A stretch of 64,000 bases of DNA from Pseudomonas sp. StFLB209 (GTDB lineage Bacteria; Pseudomonadota; Gammaproteobacteria; Pseudomonadales; Pseudomonadaceae): contig NZ_AP014637.1 of assembly GCF_000829415.1 (NCBI RefSeq), positions 3,427,001 to 3,491,000 on the forward strand, in the 5' to 3' direction. Under the pieces are notes generated by a model that ran no database searches, had not been told where the DNA came from, and saw nothing but the letters and a program-made list of their open reading frames with translations. This document shows, one piece after another, positions 9,867 through 39,816 of this stretch (its first letter is position 1; every line of letters starts with the position of its first letter). The position numbers and the translations under genes are program-made.

Positions 9867-9937
9867 CGCAAAATCTAAAAGGAATGACCTACATCATAGT
9901 GGTCTGATGACGATAAAGGTATATGCAAGGCTTTTTG

Positions 9938-10029
9938 ACCATCGGGGCGCGACAAGCCCCCGCCGTTCAGGGCGGGGAAGGATAGCGCGGACGGCGTAGC
10001 CGTCCTCGGTCGCAGGGGGCGGATGTCAA
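9938..10029 (+). mobile_element. About 92-bp mini-element with IS200/IS605-type ends
   Basis: The first 60 or so bases match the left ends of the elements at 33981 and 38194: ACCATCGGGGCGCGACAAGC, then a CCCGCC/GGCGGG hairpin and the GGACGGC-GTA-GCCGTCC hairpin. It then ends in GGATGTCAA (10021-10029), the same 3' terminus as the complete elements. So it joins a left end to a right end with nothing between. The sequence before it, TTGAC, resembles the flank of the copy at 33981. Confidence 0.55.
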
Positions 10030-10126
10030 ATAGCCTGATTCGAGCCAGGTCACCCTATGCGCGAGAAGCCTCGGGGTTTAGCCCGAGGTCGAGAGCGCGG
10101 ACGCCGCAGGCGTCCTGGTTGGGAGT

Positions 10127-10333
10127 CTACTGTTCTTCGATGTATTGGCGCAGGATTTCAATCGGCACACTGCCGCAGCTAGAGGCGAAGCAGGATGGCG
10201 ACCAGAGGACACCCCTTCGCTTGAGCCAGGGGTGGAAATCCCCGAACTGCTCACGCAGCAGTCTGGATGATACCCTCTTGAGTGAAGCCACCCGATTCGA
10301 CAACGCCCCCCATAGCTGGAAAGACCAAACCAT
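10127..10333 (-). pseudogene. tnpA: Truncated tnpA (Y1 transposase), C-terminal part only
   Basis: The 68-codon frame matches the C-terminal third of IS200/IS605 TnpA: LKRVSSRLLREQF, then LWSPSCFASSCGSVPIEI and LRQYIEEQ before the stop. The Tyr in QYIEEQ lies on the helix expected to bear the catalytic tyrosine. The N-terminal 80-90 residues, including the HUH metal-binding motif, are absent: the frame breaks 10 nt before the tnpB start, where an intact tnpA would have needed about 250 nt more. The element cannot move itself. Confidence 0.8.
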
Positions 10334-10343
10334 AATTCATTCC

Positions 10344-11414
10344 ATGACCCACACCAAGACCCTAAAGCTCCGAATCAAAGACAAGCACGCGAAAACGCTG
10401 CTTGCGATGGCGCGCGAGGTCAATCTGGTGTGGAACTACTGCAATGAAACGAGTCATCGCGCCATCCGGGAACACCACCAGTGGCTCTCCGGTTTTGACC
10501 TGCAAAAGCTGACCAATGGATTAAGCAAATGCGACGGCGTGCAGATCGGCTCGCCAACCGTGCAGCAGGTTTGCGAGGACTACGCCAAGGCCCGTAAGCA
10601 GTTCAAGCGTTCCAGGCTCAATTGGCGGGTGTCCAGCAGGAGCAGCCCCAAGTACAGCCTGGGCTGGATTCCATTCAAGGCTCGTGCCTTGCAATACAAG
10701 AATGGTCAGGTTCATTTCGCCGGGTTCAGGTTTGGCCTGTGGGACAGCTACGGTTTAAGCCAGTACGCCCTGCGGGCCGGAAGTTTCAGTGAAGATTCCA
10801 GGGGGCGCTGGTATCTCAATATCTGCGTGCAGGTTGAGAGCAAGCCGTGCATCGGCACTGCCGCAGTTGGCATCGACCTGGGCCTTAAAGCGGCGGCAAC
10901 AACGTCTGAGGGCCAGGTGCTGGTCGGGCGTGAATATCGCACCCTGGAGCAGAAGCTGGGCATCGCTCAGCGTGCTGGCAAGAGGGCACGTGTTCGCGCC
11001 CTCCATGCCAGGATCAGGAACCGGCGCAAGGATGCGCAACACAAGTTCTCAACCGCTCTGGTTGAGCGCTGCGCCGCCATTTTCGTTGGCGATGTAGCCA
11101 GCGCAAAACTCATCAAGACCCGAATGGCCAAATCCACGCTTGATGCAGGATGGGGCCAACTTAAGACAATGCTGGAGCAGAAATGCCAACGGGCAGGCGT
11201 TGTTTTTGAGGTTGTAGCCGAGCGCTATACCACCCAGACCTGCTCGTGCTGTGGAAGCATTTCCACCAGCAGTCCGAAAGGTAGAGCCGGTTTGCGAATA
11301 AGAGAATGGACCTGCGTGTGCTGCGGTACAGCCCACGACCGCGATGTAAACGCGGCCCTGAACATTCTCGCGGCGGGGCATCGCCGTCTAGCTGTAGGAA
11401 TCCACGCTCTTTAG
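10344..11414 (+). CDS. tnpB: TnpB-type RNA-guided nuclease with shifted RuvC glutamate
   Basis: Transposon-associated RuvC nuclease, 356 residues from the ATG at 10344; the open frame continues upstream but only through element left-end sequence. RuvC-I is VGIDLGLKAA with Asp178. The usual RuvC-II E-D/N-L is replaced by IFVGDVASAKL, so the glutamate position is Gly249. A glutamate sits instead at 293 in VAERYTTQTC. The zinc ribbon is C300-x2-C303 and C324-x2-C327. RuvC-III is HDRDVNAALNIL with Asp334. It is divergent from the tnpA remnant. The guide RNA is expected from the 3' end of this gene and the right end. Confidence 0.9.
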   Translation: MTHTKTLKLRIKDKHAKTLLAMAREVNLVWNYCNETSHRAIREHHQWLSGFDLQKLTNGLSKCDGVQIGSPTVQQVCEDYAKARKQFKRSRLNWRVSSRSSPKYSLGWIPFKARALQYKNGQVHFAGFRFGLWDSYGLSQYALRAGSFSEDSRGRWYLNICVQVESKPCIGTAAVGIDLGLKAAATTSEGQVLVGREYRTLEQKLGIAQRAGKRARVRALHARIRNRRKDAQHKFSTALVERCAAIFVGDVASAKLIKTRMAKSTLDAGWGQLKTMLEQKCQRAGVVFEVVAERYTTQTCSCCGSISTSSPKGRAGLRIREWTCVCCGTAHDRDVNAALNILAAGHRRLAVGIHAL

Positions 11415-11439
11415 GGCGGGGAGGATGTCAAAAAACCTG

Positions 11440-33978: not shown

Positions 33979-34008
33979 TGACCATCGGGGCGCGACAAGC
34001 CCCGCCGT

Positions 34009-34221
34009 TCAGGGCGGGGAAGGATCGCGCGGACGGCGTAGCCGTCCCTGGTTACCGTGGGGTGTCTGCTGCTGTTCGATGGACGCACCGCCACAGGATG
34101 ATGCGAAGTAACATGGCGACACAGATGCCCTTATACGGCGGTATTTCGTTACAAAGACCCCATGGGCATGCACCTTGAAAACACCGTGCCGTCCGCGCCT
34201 AATGTCGTCTCCATTGCTCAT
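34009..34221 (-). pseudogene. tnpA: Collapsed tnpA: first 30 residues joined to the C-terminal motif
   Basis: The 70-codon frame starts like Y1 transposases (RRGRHGVFKVHAHGVFVTKY), with the metal-binding HUH motif as H-A-H. It then jumps straight to the C-terminal block PCYFASSCGGASIEQQQ. About 80 or more central residues are gone, and the segment expected to hold the catalytic Tyr (QYIE in other copies) reads A-S-I-E. It should be inactive. It is divergent from tnpB with 14 nt between the starts. Confidence 0.8.
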
Positions 34222-34235
34222 GGCTCAAGAGCAGT

Positions 34236-35459
34236 ATGCAACGACTTCAAGCCTTCAAGTACGAACTCATGCCAGACGGCCGGCAGGAGCAGCAAATGCG
34301 CCGCTTTGCGGGCTCCTGTCGCTTCGTCTTCAACAAGGCGCTGGCATTGCAGAAGGAGCGCCACGAGCAAGGCGAGAACAAGCTCGGCTATGCGGGCCTG
34401 TGCAAGTTGCTGACTGAGTGGCGCCATAGCACGCAAACCGCATGGCTGGCCGATGCGCCTGTTCACCCGTTGCAACAGAGCCTCAAGGATCTGGAACGGG
34501 CCTACACCAACTTCTTCGCCAGACGAGCCGACTTTCCCCGACTCAAGAAGAAGGGGCAGCGCGATAGTTTCCGCTATCCCGACCCGAAACAGATCAAGCT
34601 CGACCAGACCAACAGTCGCCTGTTTCTGCCCAAGCTGGGCTGGCTGCGCTACCGCAACAGCCGCGAGGTGCCTGGCACGGTGAAGAACATCACCGTGAGC
34701 CAGTCGTGTGGCAAGTGGTTCGTGAGTATCCAGACCGAACGCGAGATCGATGAGCAGCCCACGGCGCAGGGTGCGGCAGTCGGCATCGACATGGGCATTG
34801 CCCGGTTCGCCACGCTTTCGGATGGTTCGTTCTACGCACCCCTCAACAGCTTCAAACGCCATGAGACCGCGCTGTGCAAAGCGCAGCAGGCGATGAGCCG
34901 CAAGGTCAGATTCAGCCGCAACTGGAACAAGGCGAAAGCCCGCGTCCAGCGCATTCACTCGCGCATCGGCAATGCCCGCCGCGACTACCTGCACAAGTGC
35001 TCTACCACGATCAGCCAAAACCACGCGATGGTGTGTATCGAGGACTTGCAGGTACGCAATATGTCCAGGTCGGCGGCAGGCACGGCAGAGGCGCCGGGAA
35101 GAAACGTCCGTGCCAAATCTGGCCTGAACAGGGCCATCCTCGATCAGGGCTGGTTCGAGTTTCGCCGCCAACTGGACTACAAGCTGGCGTGGCGCGGCGG
35201 CTGGCTGATTGCCGTGCCGCCGCGAGATACCAGCCGCACGTGCCCTTGTTGCGGCCATGTGTCGGCGGCCAACCGCCAGACGCAAGCGCTGTTCAGGTGT
35301 GTGGGATGTGGTTTTGAAGGCAACGCCGATGTGGTTGGCGCGATGAATGTACTAAGGGCGGGACACGCCCGGTTAGCCTGTGAAGTGAGCGCAGAGGTCA
35401 TGGCGCCAGCAGCAGGAACCCACCGAAGCGACTCGGGGGCGGCTCGATGCCGCGCCTGA
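34236..35459 (+). CDS. tnpB: TnpB-type RNA-guided nuclease, copy 1
   Basis: A 407-residue transposon-encoded RuvC nuclease with the canonical triad: Asp185 (VGIDMGIARFATLS), Glu269 (VCIEDLQVRNM) and Asp365 (EGNADVVGAMNVL). The zinc ribbon is C336-x2-C339 and C355-x2-C358. The N-terminus (MQRLQAFKYELMPDG) is the usual helix-turn start of the family. It is intact. Its guide RNA would come from the gene's 3' end plus the right end, with the guide reading into 35503 onward. Confidence 0.93.
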   Translation: MQRLQAFKYELMPDGRQEQQMRRFAGSCRFVFNKALALQKERHEQGENKLGYAGLCKLLTEWRHSTQTAWLADAPVHPLQQSLKDLERAYTNFFARRADFPRLKKKGQRDSFRYPDPKQIKLDQTNSRLFLPKLGWLRYRNSREVPGTVKNITVSQSCGKWFVSIQTEREIDEQPTAQGAAVGIDMGIARFATLSDGSFYAPLNSFKRHETALCKAQQAMSRKVRFSRNWNKAKARVQRIHSRIGNARRDYLHKCSTTISQNHAMVCIEDLQVRNMSRSAAGTAEAPGRNVRAKSGLNRAILDQGWFEFRRQLDYKLAWRGGWLIAVPPRDTSRTCPCCGHVSAANRQTQALFRCVGCGFEGNADVVGAMNVLRAGHARLACEVSAEVMAPAAGTHRSDSGAARCRA

Positions 35460-35502
35460 GCGCCGTAGGAATCTCCGGCCTTCAGGTCGGGGAGGATGTC
35501 AA

Positions 35503-35820
35503 GGGTTACTTGTCAGCAGGCGGGCATCCTATACGACGTTGAAGGCCAGCGGCCATGGCTTTGTGACGGCTATGCGGGTAGGCTTTGGTGATGGCAAAAA
35601 GGCCGGTTTCTGGCTCGAAAATCCGCCTGATTGCAAGATGCCTCTCTTTCTCTTGAAGGAAATTTCCGAGAAAATCCTGACCGCTTGCGCCTGTGCTCCG
35701 GGCTGTCTAGGCTGCCCCGCGTCGCTGCTTTCAGCGACAGGGCTTGGCCGCCCGATCAACCATTCATAGGCGCAGCGTGCCATAAAATTCACTGTGGACC
35801 TGGTTCTCAGTGTTGCTTCA
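35503..35820. other. Non-coding stretch after TnpB copy 1
   Basis: No gene is supported. A minus-strand frame at 35529-35792 encodes a Lys/Pro/Ser-rich peptide with no domain and no ribosome site, and is probably chance. A perfect 7-bp hairpin GTCGCTG-CTTT-CAGCGAC lies at 35721-35738. The stretch leads into the structured region at 35821. Confidence 0.5.
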
Positions 35821-35915
35821 TGGCAACTGTGCGAGGGACACCTTCGGGTGTGCCGAGGTGCCTATGACTCGGTCGGCCAACCCTTGTGCAGTTGCCACCA
35901 ATTTGCTTGGCCGCG
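35821..35915 (+). ncRNA. Candidate structured (pseudoknotted) 5' leader RNA
   Basis: Stem A pairs 35821-35829 with 35889-35897 (9 bp, perfect). Inside are a hairpin ACACC-TTCG-GGTGT (35838-35851, a stable UUCG-type loop) and a hairpin CCGAG-N10-CTCGG (35853-35872). CGGCCAA at 35874-35880, inside stem A, is complementary to TTGGCCG at 35907-35913, outside it, which would make a pseudoknot. It ends about 40 nt before the start codon at 35954. The class is not one I recognise. Confidence 0.45.
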
Positions 35916-35953
35916 AAGGGTGGTGCTTTCCTCAAGTGCATAGGAGTTTCGCG

Positions 35954-36229
35954 ATGACCAAAAAACTCGTTCCCGATCCACCGACTTCCAGCCCCGTGCC
36001 CATTGCGGCGCACGATCTCAACCACTTCGAAATGCAGCTCAACCAGGTCTACGACGTGCTGCGCTGCGCCACCGCGATTGCCTATGAATGTGCCGATAAC
36101 CTGCAGGGCCAGCCCCGCGATCTGGCCATGGGCAGCATGCACCTGATCGGCCATGCGCGCAAAATGGTCCATGAACTGCTCGATCAGTTGCAGCCGGTGG
36201 TGCCGGACACTGATGGTCTGGCGAACTGA
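35954..36229 (+). CDS. Small DUF6124/DUF3077-like protein
   Basis: A 91-residue protein from the ATG at 35954 with AGGAG upstream (35942). It begins MTKKLVPDPPTSSP, a Pro-rich start typical of a small Pseudomonas family (DUF3077 / DUF6124), and continues with two amphipathic helices (HFEMQLNQVYDVLRCATAI and MHLIGHARKMVHELLDQLQP). No catalytic motif or signal peptide is seen. Function is unknown. It has an unusual, possibly structured leader. Confidence 0.7.
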   Translation: MTKKLVPDPPTSSPVPIAAHDLNHFEMQLNQVYDVLRCATAIAYECADNLQGQPRDLAMGSMHLIGHARKMVHELLDQLQPVVPDTDGLAN

Positions 36230-36325
36230 CCTGCTGCTGGTTATGGTCGTGCACGCGGCGAGCGCTTGACCTCCACTTAACTTGAGGTCTGATACTCGCG
36301 CTCCTTCACACCAGGAGCTGCCCTC

Positions 36326-36778
36326 ATGACTCATCGCGCTGCATTCGAACTGTTCAACCCGCAAGGCCTCTACGACCCCACCGGTAACGGCTATTCCCAT
36401 GGCGCACGGGTCGAAACCCCGGCGCGCTTTGTGTTTCTGGCCGGGCAGGGCGGTGAAGACAGTCAGGGCCTATTGGCCGACAGTTTCGCCGCCCAGGCTC
36501 GTCAGGCGCTGGCCAATGTCCGTATCGCCTTGCAGGTCCAGGGTGCGGACTTCAACGATGTGTTCAAGCTGACCCTGCTGATTGTCGATCACAGCCAGCA
36601 GCGGTTGGGTGAGTGGGCGGCGGCCATCGATCAGGCCTGGGGGGCGGCAATGAAACCGGCCTGCACATTGATTCCGGTGCCGCGCCTGGCATTGGACGGC
36701 ATGCTGGTGGAAATCGAGGCGATGGCGGTGATTGCCGGCGGGCATGGCCCTTCATCGGATGCTGGTGCGATCTCCTGA
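36326..36778 (+). CDS. RidA family protein (YjgF/YER057c/UK114)
   Basis: A 150-residue member of the RidA superfamily, trimeric enzymes that hydrolyse reactive imines or enamines. Features are FVFLAGQGGED near residue 40, AQARQALANVRIALQVQGAD, VFKLTLLIV and the last conserved block ACTLIPVPRLALDGMLVEIE, where the Arg that binds the substrate carboxylate in true RidA (usually R-x-A-V) is kept as PRLAL. It may be an archetypal or a divergent member. It is alone, 97 nt after the small DUF gene. Confidence 0.85.
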   Translation: MTHRAAFELFNPQGLYDPTGNGYSHGARVETPARFVFLAGQGGEDSQGLLADSFAAQARQALANVRIALQVQGADFNDVFKLTLLIVDHSQQRLGEWAAAIDQAWGAAMKPACTLIPVPRLALDGMLVEIEAMAVIAGGHGPSSDAGAIS

Positions 36779-36912
36779 ACGCCACCCGCCAGCAGTGTTC
36801 CAACTCCATACAAGGCGGAGTTTCAGTGGTCCCGGTCCTTGCCTGGCAAGCAGCCGAGTGCCCGTCACCGCAGTAGTGACGGGCGCTCGGCCGCTGCACT
36901 GAGGACACTCAC

Positions 36913-38094
36913 ATGAAACCTGAACAACCGCCCGGACCACCCGACCCTTCGCCCATCCAGTTCAGCCCAGCGCCCGCCGTCCAGCCACGAGCGACGCTGT
37001 TGTGCCTGAGCCACCTGCGCTGGGACTTTGTCTGGCAGCGACCGCAACAGTTGATGTCGCGGTTGGCCACTGACTACGAGGTGTGGTTCTTTGAAGAGCC
37101 GCAGTTCGACGAGCGACCGGAACCGTATCTGGAGGTGCGTGAGGTGGCCGGCGGTATCACGGTGCTGGTGCCATGGTTGCCGCAGGACCTGGGCGAGCAG
37201 CGCATCATCAGCCTGCAACGGCAGTTGCTTGATGGCTGGCTGGCGCAGCATCACCAAGCGCCCCTGCTGTTGTGGTACTTCACCCCCATGGGGCTGCGAT
37301 TTACCCGGCATCTGGTCGGCCAGGTGGTGGTCTTCGATTGCATGGACGAACTGGCGGCGCTGCGCCATGCCCCGCCGGCCCTGGCGGAGCTGGAGCGACA
37401 ACTGCTGGAGCGCGCCGATGTGGTGTTTACCGGCGGGCTCAGCCTCTGGGAGTCGCGGCGTGAGCGGCATGACAACGTGCACCTGATGCCCGGCAGCGTC
37501 GACATCGCGCATTTTGCCCATGCCCGCCTGGTCCAGGCCGAGCCTGCCGATCAGGCTGATATCGGCCGACCGCGGCTGGGGTTTTTCGGCGTGCTCGATG
37601 AGCAACTGGACCTTGTGCTGTTGCGCGAGCTGGCCATGCGTCGGCCGCTATGGCAGATCATCCTGATCGGGCCGGTGGCCAGGATCGACCCCGCGAGCCT
37701 GCCACGTCAGCCCAACCTGCATTACCTGGGGCCGCGCGACTACCAGACGCTGCCGGCCTATCTGTCAGGTTGGGATGTGGCGCTGATGCCGTTTGCCATC
37801 AATGAATCGACACGCTACATCAGCCCGACTCAACCTCTGGAATACCTCGCCGGTGGGCGCCCGGTGGTGTCCACGCCCATCCATGATGTGGTTGAGTGCT
37901 ACGCCGACAGCGGCGTGGTGAGCATCGCTGCCACCCCGCAGGCGTTTATCGAAGCCATCGGCCTGGCGCTGGATCTGACCCGCCAGCCTGCGCGGCTCCA
38001 GGCCTTGGCTGACCGTGCGTTGCAGGGCATGTCGTGGGACAGCACCTGTGAGCGGATCAAGGAGCAGATTGCATCCCTGCGCCACGCCTTGTGA
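36913..38094 (+). CDS. Glycosyltransferase, group 1 type
   Basis: A 393-residue cytoplasmic protein with a two-lobed GT-B pattern. After a Pro-rich N-terminus (residues 1-28) it has ATLLCLSHLRWDFVWQRPQQ, a VFDCMDELAALR segment, LGFFGVLDEQLDL at the second lobe and PTQPLEYLAGGRPVVSTPIH, the E-x7-E-like donor-binding region. This family often acts in exopolysaccharide or envelope glycan synthesis, but no other glycan gene lies nearby, so the product is unknown. Confidence 0.85.
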   Translation: MKPEQPPGPPDPSPIQFSPAPAVQPRATLLCLSHLRWDFVWQRPQQLMSRLATDYEVWFFEEPQFDERPEPYLEVREVAGGITVLVPWLPQDLGEQRIISLQRQLLDGWLAQHHQAPLLLWYFTPMGLRFTRHLVGQVVVFDCMDELAALRHAPPALAELERQLLERADVVFTGGLSLWESRRERHDNVHLMPGSVDIAHFAHARLVQAEPADQADIGRPRLGFFGVLDEQLDLVLLRELAMRRPLWQIILIGPVARIDPASLPRQPNLHYLGPRDYQTLPAYLSGWDVALMPFAINESTRYISPTQPLEYLAGGRPVVSTPIHDVVECYADSGVVSIAATPQAFIEAIGLALDLTRQPARLQALADRALQGMSWDSTCERIKEQIASLRHAL

Positions 38095-38221
38095 TGGCTC
38101 AAACGCCATGACATTGGCAGGCAGGATCAGCGGGCGATCCAGGCTGATTTCAACGCAGTATTGGCGAACGCAGCCATTTTGTAGACCACTCTGACCATCG
38201 GGGCGCGACAAGCCCCGCCGT

Positions 38222-38434
38222 TCAGGGCGGGGAAGGATCGCGCGGACGGCGTAGCCGTCCCTGGTTGCAGTGGGGTGTCTGCTGCTGTTCGGTGTACTCA
38301 CCGCCACAGGATGATGCGAAGTAACACGGCGATACAGTATGCCTTTTACGGCGGTATTTCGTTACAAAGACCCCATGGGCATGCATCTTGAAAACACCGT
38401 GCCGTCCGCGCCTAATGGCGTCTTCATTGCTCAT
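38222..38434 (-). pseudogene. tnpA: Collapsed tnpA, copy 2
   Basis: Same deletion structure as the copy-1 remnant: RRGRHGVFKMHAHGVFVTKY joined to PCYFASSCGGEYTEQQQ. Unlike copy 1, a Tyr is kept before TEQQQ, at the place of the catalytic Tyr. The central part is missing, so activity is not expected. Sharing of the joint shows the deletion came before the two copies separated. Confidence 0.8.
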
Positions 38435-38448
38435 GGCTCAAGAGCAGC

Positions 38449-39672
38449 ATGCAACGACTTCAAGCCTTCAAGTACGAACTCATGCCAGACGGCCAGCAGG
38501 AGCGGCAAATGCGCCGCTTTGCGGGTTCCTGTCGCTTCGTCTTCAACAAGGCGCTGGCGTTGCAGAAGGAGCGCCACGAGCAAGGCGAGAACAAGCTCGG
38601 CTATGCGGGCCTGTGCAAGTTGCTGACCGAATGGCGCAATAGCCCGCCAACCGCATGGCTGGCCGATGCGCCTGTTCACCCCTTGCAACAGAGCCTCAAG
38701 GATCTGGAACGGGCCTACACCAACTTCTTCGCCAAGCGAGCCGACTTTCCCCGGTTCAAGAAGAAGGGGCAGCGCGACAGTTTCCGCTATCCCGACCCGA
38801 AACAGATCAAGCTCGACCAGACCAACAGCCGCCTGTTTCTGCCAAAACTGGGCTGGCTGCGCTACCGCAACAGCCGCGAGGTGCCTGGCACGGTGAAGAA
38901 CATCACCGTGAGCCAGTCGTGTGGCAAGTGGTTCGTGAGCATCCAGACCGAACGCGAGGTCGATGAGCAGCCCACGGCACAGGGTGCGGCAGTCGGCATC
39001 GACATGGACATTGCCCGGTTCGCCACGCTTTCGGATGGCTCGTTCTACGCACCCCTGAACAGCTTCAAACGCCATGAAACCGCGCTGTGCAAAGCGCAGC
39101 AGGCGATGAGCCGCAAGGTCAGATTCAGCCGCAACTGGAACAAGGCGAAAGCCTGCGTCCAGCGCATTCATTCCCGCATCGGCAATGCCCGCCGCGACTA
39201 CCTGCACAAGTGCTCCACCACGATTAGCCAAAACCACGCGATGGTGTGTATCGAGGACTTGCAGGTACGGAATATGTCCAGATCGGCGGCAGGCACGGTA
39301 GAGGCACCGGGAAGAAACGTCCGTGCCAAATCTGGCCTGAACAGGGCCATCCTCGATCAGGGCTGGTTCGAGTTCCGCCGCCAACTGGACTACAAGCTGG
39401 CGTGGCGCGGCGGCTGGCTGATTGCCGTGCCGCCGCAAAATACCAGCCGCACGTGCCCGTGTTGCGGCCATGTGTCGGCGGCCAACCGCCAGACGCAGGC
39501 GCTGTTCAGGTGTGTGGGATGTGGTTTTGAAGGCAACGCCGATGTGGTCGGCGCGATCAATGTACTAAGGGCGGGACACGCCCGGTTAGCCTGTGAAGTG
39601 AGCGCAGAGGTCATGGCGCCAGCAGCAGGAACCTACCGAAGCGACTCGGGGGCGGCTCGGTGCCGCGCCTGA
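38449..39672 (+). CDS. tnpB: TnpB-type RNA-guided nuclease, copy 2
   Basis: 407 residues, differing from copy 1 at 15 positions by my hand alignment. The triad Asp185, Glu269, Asp365 and the four zinc-ribbon cysteines are kept. A notable change is Gly187 to Asp, two residues after the first catalytic Asp (VGIDMDIARF), and Met370 to Ile. The open frame is intact. The guide would read into 39716 onward, which is the chemoreceptor gene stump. Confidence 0.92.
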   Translation: MQRLQAFKYELMPDGQQERQMRRFAGSCRFVFNKALALQKERHEQGENKLGYAGLCKLLTEWRNSPPTAWLADAPVHPLQQSLKDLERAYTNFFAKRADFPRFKKKGQRDSFRYPDPKQIKLDQTNSRLFLPKLGWLRYRNSREVPGTVKNITVSQSCGKWFVSIQTEREVDEQPTAQGAAVGIDMDIARFATLSDGSFYAPLNSFKRHETALCKAQQAMSRKVRFSRNWNKAKACVQRIHSRIGNARRDYLHKCSTTISQNHAMVCIEDLQVRNMSRSAAGTVEAPGRNVRAKSGLNRAILDQGWFEFRRQLDYKLAWRGGWLIAVPPQNTSRTCPCCGHVSAANRQTQALFRCVGCGFEGNADVVGAINVLRAGHARLACEVSAEVMAPAAGTYRSDSGAARCRA

Positions 39673-39715
39673 GCGCCGTAGGAATCTCCGGCCTTCAGGC
39701 CGGGGAGGATGTCAA

Positions 39716-39816
39716 GGGGCTTGCCCATCGTCACTCGCAACTTGCTGATCGCCAGCCAGGAACTGTCCCGTCTGGCGGTGCAACTCAATACGCTGGTGGG
39801 CAAGTTTGTGGTTTGA
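39716..39816 (+). pseudogene. C-terminal stump of a chemoreceptor (methyl-accepting chemotaxis protein)
   Basis: The frame entering from the element's right end reads LPIVTRNLLIASQELSRLA, VQLNTLVGKFVV and stops at 39814-39816. ASQELSRLAVQLNTLVGKF resembles the last helix and C-terminus of Pseudomonas methyl-accepting chemotaxis proteins. The rest of the gene is absent: the other side of the element holds the 3' end of a glycosyltransferase gene. So a deletion accompanied or followed the insertion. Confidence 0.6.

Follow-up and report, generated by a model that had tools for sequence, protein, structure and literature searches.

A tnpA-collapsed, tnpB-bearing IS605-type element at many sites in Pseudomonas sp. 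StFLB209 and how it may have moved

In a 64,000-nt stretch of the genome of Pseudomonas sp. StFLB209 (contig NZ_AP014637.1, positions 3,427,001 to 3,491,000; hereafter the window), two elements lie in direct orientation 4.2 kb apart, each with an open gene for the RNA-guided nuclease TnpB and a collapsed remnant of the transposase gene tnpA. How did an element without a working transposase come to be present more than once? Our reading, to which we give a probability of about 0.78, is that both repeats belong to a set of at least 19 copies of a non-autonomous IS605-type derivative (family A), moved as lagging-strand single-stranded DNA by a Y1 TnpA acting in trans.

The two units and their copies in the genome

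An earlier note on this DNA described two units of 1,522 bp (33981-35502 and 38194-39715) with tnpB starting 255 nt from the left end and TnpB proteins that differ at 15 of 407 residues. All these values were reproduced; the units differ at 60 nucleotides. The right ends also stand, but the left border had been set 2 nt too far left, because TGAC is the retained target according to the pairing of guide and cleavage site; the elements are therefore 33983-35502 and 38196-39715, 1,520 bp each. Their parts are as follows (window positions).

33979..33982 (+): target and left cleavage site (CL) TGAC, left flank of copy 1, from left guide pairing by the IS608 rule; predicted transposon-adjacent motif (TAM) of its TnpB
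33983..35502 (+): copy 1, family A, 1,520 bp, tnpA-collapsed IS605-type element
33996..34019 (+): copy 1, left guide CAAG (33996-33999) and left-end hairpin (34000-34019)
34009..34221 (-): copy 1, collapsed tnpA remnant, 70 codons, HUH deleted; Pfam Y1_Tnp below cut-off
34236..35459 (+): copy 1, tnpB, 407 aa, RNA-guided endonuclease TnpB family (Pfam, NCBIfam and structure matches); putative RuvC residues D185, E269, D365
35435..35515 (+): expected omega RNA or right-end RNA (reRNA) region of copy 1: tnpB 3' end, right end and first guide bases
35469..35502 (+): copy 1, right guide GAAT (35469-35472), right-end hairpin, right cleavage site TCAA (35499-35502)
35503..35518 (+): putative 16-nt guide of copy 1, from the right flank, by analogy with ISDra2 (PMC8612924)
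38192..38195 (+): target TGAC of copy 2
38196..39715 (+): copy 2, family A
38222..38434 (-): copy 2, collapsed tnpA remnant, joints as in copy 1
38449..39672 (+): copy 2, tnpB, 407 aa

Two direct copies so close together might be a single segmental duplication or an assembly artefact. The flanks of copies 1 and 2 agree at 26/100 and 24/100 positions and are thus unrelated, so that the shared flanks which the earlier note had named as the mark of a duplication are absent. Together with the 60 differences and 17 further copies at other sites of a single-contig assembly, this contradicts both explanations, whose probability we regard as negligible.

The whole genome (one contig, 6.33 Mb) was searched with the 1,522-bp unit, and 40 of 127 candidate places were scored, so that the counts given here are lower bounds. 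There are at least 45 matches and at least 19 near-complete family A copies (at least 1,507 of 1,522 nt covered, 95-100% identity), many more than chance could produce. Both tnpA deletion joints lie at the identical place in all 19, whose flanks differ. The defective form itself has thus multiplied, as the earlier note had proposed when it suggested a genome-wide search for the unit. TGAC stands at the left border in 18/19 copies (17 by alignment of joint and border, plus L019, whose left end is cut and whose target was read from its flank); L012 has TGGC.

The collapse of tnpA with shared joints, seen in 19/19 copies, and the retention of the SCGG block are confirmed, but the HUH part, which had been thought to survive at the N-terminus, is gone. 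The N-terminal strand (GRHxVFxxHAHxVFVTKYRR) remains, as does the SCGG block, whereas the deletion has taken the HUH motif (DDHVHLL or HDHVHLL in intact relatives). Compared with the intact relatives L134, L055 and L090, the remnant lacks about 230 nt of mid-tnpA, HUH included, and a second gap, immediately ahead of the 'IEQQQ' block, accounts for another 21 nt. The codon at the second joint, which we take to be that of the catalytic tyrosine, reads Ser in 11, Tyr in 7 and Asn in 1 of the 19 copies, so that the tyrosine is altered in at least 12. L008, L009 and L012 have an altered remnant frame and L013 has a stop in it, and Pfam Y1_Tnp scores the two window remnants at 12.3 and 14 bits (cut-off 23). 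Judged by sequence, the remnant would be dead from the loss of HUH alone. As the window copies have no intact Y1 (HUH) tnpA, they are classed as a non-autonomous derivative of the IS605 group; with tnpB between IS ends and no functional tnpA, they also fit the description of IS1341-type elements.

Loss of tnpA is common and repeated among relatives of this TnpB. Seventy-nine loci were kept of 479; tnpA is intact and divergent in 35, broken in 15 and undetected in 25, and four have too little upstream sequence, so that 35 of 75 classifiable loci keep an intact gene. In one genome (G030) an intact element occurs together with another that collapsed independently and has a different joint. The family A joint was found in no genome of the genus but its own when left end and remnant were compared with 298 genomes (best two candidates per genome scored); matches occurred in seven genomes, its own included, and the loci of three of the six others were inspected. 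In Verrucomicrobia bacterium LP2A (L106, L107, L109, L115, L125, L130), tnpA is undetected at five loci and present at one. In those five an A-like left end follows TGAC, so a second phylum may show this pattern too.

The TnpB of copy 1 matches Pfam PF01385, PF07282 and PF12323 and NCBIfam guided_TnpB (NF040570, 350.5 bits, cut-off 100), falls below the cut-off of the narrower IS200_TnpB model (287.9 bits, cut-off 425) and is related to TnpB chains of solved structure (e.g., 8bf8_A, 6.9e-53). D185, E269 and D365, which from motif position we take to be the RuvC triad, occur at aligned positions in 19/19 copies. A nuclease-dead TnpB was considered but is not supported, since the D-E-D residues are present. 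The frame is open in 16/19 copies and has a 1-nt indel in 3/19, in agreement with the intact TnpB of the earlier note. At 35435-35515 there is a sub-threshold match to Rfam HgcC (31.1 bits, gathering 50, E 2.7e-4). A second sub-threshold HgcC match (39648-39729) lies where the guide RNA scaffold of copy 2 is expected.

Ends, targets and strand of insertion

What do the insertion sites say about the manner of movement? Each end of family A has a subterminal hairpin preceded by a tetranucleotide guide, CAAG on the left and GAAT on the right, as in the IS605 group. In IS608, each hairpin has on its 5' side a four-base guide that base-pairs with the cleavage site; the contacts include A+16:T-3 and A+17:T-4 (PMC5934647). 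By this rule CAAG predicts TGAC, which is the observed left flank of family A copies; insertion is 3' of TGAC, with the target set by the left guide, again as in the IS605 group. For the other two guide positions, pairing in the IS608 rule is presumed here. The rule was applied to 39 near full-length tnpA loci (38 from other genomes plus one family B copy, see below), 36 of which could be anchored (not L071, L086 and L138); in 34 of these 36 the predicted site lies 8-20 nt ahead of the guide, the exceptions being L062 and L099, while the sites of the other guide classes occur at that position in 1/9, 1/32, 0/33 and 0/34 loci. Left guide and target are seen to covary (CAAG-TGAC, CAAA-TGAT, AAAG-TTAC, AAAA-TTAT, GAAG-TCAC) in L102, L110, L114, L127, L128, L133, L134, L135 and family B.

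Comparison of flanks with genomes that lack the insertion, as had been proposed, succeeded for a copy elsewhere in the genome (L015) and failed for the window copies. L015 interrupts an open frame. By protein search, the left half of the split gene has homologues in 3/198 other genomes, and the gene is continuous in all three (G080, G144, G180): the halves meet with no base between them in G080 and G144, and G180 has a single unaligned codon at the join. In these uninterrupted homologues TGAC is read through as codons, and at this one tested site there is no target duplication. A DNA search for the L015 site in 57 genomes returned its own genome and one 29-nt match only. For the window copies no empty site was found, and no match to the intervening 2.7 kb reached an insertion junction; this segment has partial matches in 68/143 other genomes (65-92% identity, two candidates per genome scored), the nearest of which (G028) ends before the site of copy 2, with a 14-nt chance match only for the right flank. 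The 2.7 kb also contains a C4 antisense RNA match at 35816-35902 (+; RF01695, 72.9 bits, gathering 45), presumably an immunity RNA of the phage P1/P7 type, with a sub-threshold a1/b1 target match nearby (35707-35758).

Replichores were defined by dnaA at 1.858 Mb and a dif site, matched perfectly, at 4.950 Mb; a second, weaker dnaA-type match (PF00308, 433 kb, 54.9 bits) was set aside. The top strand of the transposon serves as lagging-strand template in 16/19 family A copies (p = 0.0044), as in the IS605 group, in 9/11 copies of family B (p 0.065) and in 26/33 when A, B and reduced copies are taken together (p 0.0013), where the p values are a guide only, the copies not being fully independent events. 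Seven fragments stand outside this count, and four of them agree with the bias (at 5123899, 3436938, 915809 and 5388722).

Three reduced family A copies of 824-827 bp share one joint, which removes unit positions 273-964 (692 nt, more than half of tnpB). They lie at three unrelated TGAC sites: G000:C1:268653-269476 (L023/L025), 5984229-5985052 (L022/L026) and 5539008-5539834 (L021/L028). As they have multiplied with neither gene intact, they again call for help in trans. The window also contains an even smaller form, immediately ahead of a family B copy.

9940..10029 (+): mini-element of 90 bp in which the left end of family A is fused to a TGTCAA end; TGAC target at 9936-9939

Palindrome-associated transposable elements (PATEs) and miniature inverted-repeat transposable element (MITE)-like derivatives keep the ends and no intact gene. 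The reduced copies and the mini-element are of this kind, unlike the 19 main family A copies, which keep tnpB. With TnpB intact and conserved, it might be asked whether cutting and homing by TnpB were enough to spread the elements, with no TnpA involved. The new sites, however, have TGAC in common rather than flank homology, orientation bias and guide-target match are signatures of TnpA, and the reduced copies, which lack 692 nt of tnpB, contradict such a mode of spread, which is thus extremely improbable.

A sister family, a candidate helper and selection on tnpB

Where might the transposase come from? The assembly contains 12 Y1_Tnp matches (31/31 candidates scored). No intact A-type tnpA is among them, and the search proposed in the earlier note turned up instead one intact TnpA in a sister family, B (target TCAC, TnpB of 356 aa, 11 copies in the examined loci). 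The left guide of family B, GAAG, predicts TCAC, and this target is present in 11/11 copies; the ends have the same architecture as those of A and share with them the right guide (GAAT) and right site (TCAA). Ten of the 11 copies, at ten different TCAC sites, have one common 248-bp tnpA deletion. One of them lies in the window.

10050..11431 (+): family B copy L034; target TCAC 10050-10053, element 10054-11431, shared 248-bp tnpA deletion, tnpB about 10344-11414

The sole copy with an intact tnpA is L031, whose TnpA scores 137.3 bits with NCBIfam transpos_IS200 (cut-off 55). Because L031 alone among the 12 matches is a near full-length IS200-type TnpA (the other long match, L037, is a transposase associated with repetitive extragenic palindromic (REP) sequences), the present genome offers one plausible helper, and the TnpA of L031 is the best candidate still present.

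On this basis the following course of events may be proposed. An ancestral element would have lost the middle of tnpA, HUH included, while TnpB and the hairpin and guide of each end were retained. A TnpA encoded outside the element, either the intact one of family B or an A-type enzyme since lost, would then peel the shortened element off the lagging-strand template, directed by the element's DNA guides, and paste it after a new TGAC. Excision would leave a resealed donor joint of TGAC plus flank, which TnpB with its right-flank guide presumably cuts; the sister chromosome copy may then serve to bring the element back, a scheme put forward for ISDra2 (PMC8612924).

In family A, tnpB is under purifying selection, and the C-terminal part of the tnpA remnant is as variable as synonymous sites. 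The ratio of nonsynonymous to synonymous polymorphism (pN/pS) of tnpB is 0.15 over 171 pairs; 58/170 variants are nonsynonymous (115 +/- 6 expected) and none is nonsense (6.8 expected), and among single-copy variants 23/64 are nonsynonymous (40.7 +/- 3.7 expected). The diversity of the C-terminal remnant is 0.0996 and the synonymous diversity (pS) of tnpB 0.101. Third-position diversity along tnpB is lowest in the last of ten windows (0.041; 0.046-0.103 in the others), in line with the omega RNA region expected at the tnpB 3' end, and diversity is 0.034 in the left-end hairpin region and 0.016 at the right end. Family B tnpB points in the same direction (36/91 nonsynonymous, 61.5 +/- 4.3 expected). 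The private changes of the reduced copies, taken as a neutral control for tnpB, comprise six nonsynonymous and six synonymous ones (neutral expectation 8.3/12; Fisher p 0.18 against full copies). With copies too few or too badly framed to serve as replicates of the selection test, LP2A gave 61/114 nonsynonymous (83.9 expected), Azotobacter 19/34 (25.3 expected) and Crenobacter no variants.

Several observations weigh against movement in trans as we read it. The reduced copies have no orientation bias (1/3), and three fragments (292697, 5972457-5972735, 5976379) disagree in orientation. Pairwise differences among family A copies range from 5 to 93 positions, so most movement is old and the helper perhaps gone, and the hairpin loops of A and B differ by one base (TTCA and TTTA). 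The N-terminal tnpA remnant of family A has a diversity of only 0.051, below that of the C-terminal remnant, and the tnpA remnant of family B (0.029) is less diverse than its tnpB third positions (0.046). In both families variant linkage falls with distance (0/500 permutations as extreme in each), and therefore dispersed copies exchange sequence by gene conversion, which could partly have spread the joint, spread a working tnpB and blurred the history of the joint.

The age of the copies and the difference in loops bear on the identity of the helper. It may have been an A-type TnpA, now lost or carried on a transient plasmid, with the TnpA of family B uninvolved; this is a variant of movement in trans, and the confidences of the two overlap. 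Intact A-like elements with TTCA loops do occur in other species, and most A copies are several per cent diverged. No intact A-type gene is present in the assembly, however, family B shares end architecture, right guide and right site with A, and two intact A-like relatives (L061, L112) have TTTA loops on A-like left ends. An A-type helper is a serious possibility, at somewhat less than even odds.

Gene conversion suggests a further alternative, in which full-length A elements were moved by their own tnpA, the collapsed left end spread later by conversion and the defective form never moved. The exchange between copies favours it, as does the intact family B copy, L031, which is no outlier in tnpB within its family (19-44 differences). 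On the other hand, the genome searches turned up no A copy whose tnpA is intact, the same type of loss prevails in two families, and the equality of C-terminal remnant and tnpB synonymous diversity argues that the joint is not a recent sweep. We consider this alternative unlikely and continue to favour movement of the defective form by a TnpA in trans.

Why, then, would tnpB be conserved? The purifying selection, single-copy variants included, might reflect recruitment of TnpB for a host function. This is very unlikely given the many diverged copies, the intact RuvC triad and the different right flanks, and given that 35 of the 75 classifiable relatives still stand beside an intact tnpA. A tentative proposal, to which we give less credence than to an A-type helper, is that TnpB is selected copy by copy, in place, in elements without transposase: each copy would need its own nuclease to be retained, and such retention in cis would preserve 16/19 frames while the C-terminal tnpA remnant drifts to the synonymous level. 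We found no published purifying selection on TnpB among IS copies in a limited literature search, mostly of titles and abstracts, which is not proof of absence. Two leads were discarded: the word in PMC8612924 is 'co-purifying', and the phrase in PMC11844463 lies within a reference title.

Known systems and significance

The nearest published case is Halanaerobium hydrogeniformans (Sadler et al. 2020, PMC7290912), which has 22 IS605 elements and one intact tnpA; 17 of the 22 have a 'type 5' tnpA, with the 5'-most 63 nt joined to the 3'-most 59 nt, and the authors state that all elements have intact ends and propose that TnpA acts in trans. The likeness is close: an N-C fused tnpA in most elements, one intact tnpA and the same proposal. 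This kind of decay has thus already been published in a near-identical case, and its novelty is lower than the earlier note supposed. What StFLB209 adds is a strand bias, a tnpB that is both open and conserved, and a parallel second family. In H. hydrogeniformans, 4/22 tnpB genes are of the type most likely to be functional, whereas 16/19 are open and under purifying selection in StFLB209; a strand preference was sought there and none seen (10/22 tnpA on the leading strand), whereas orientation is biased here; and, unlike in H. hydrogeniformans, two families in one genome have the same pattern.

IS608 of Helicobacter pylori has the same right guide GAAT, right site TCAA and guide-to-target pairing as family A, but its target is TTAC and it has its own tnpA, whereas family A has TGAC and no working tnpA (PMC5934647). 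ISDra2, likened here by family, encodes a TnpB of about 408 aa that takes its guide from the right flank and cuts beside the transposon's target motif; unlike family A it keeps tnpA, and its target is TTGAT (PMC8612924). The IS1341-type (tnpB-only) elements likewise hold tnpB between IS ends without a working tnpA; according to PMC9956272 it is unclear if they are autonomous or represent decayed copies. In family A the tnpA remnant can still be read, so that the derivation is visible.

Why bacteria hold many TnpB genes without a transposase is an open question. In this one genome, the transposase has decayed in two parallel families and the RNA-guided nuclease has not, and a candidate helper, the targets and the guides can all be read. 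The genome therefore permits a direct test of two questions: does TnpB protect the copy that encodes it once the transposase has been lost, and can one TnpA serve several element families? If selection on TnpB in place were true, the genome would be a natural test of the 'peel, paste and copy' model, replicated in families A and B.

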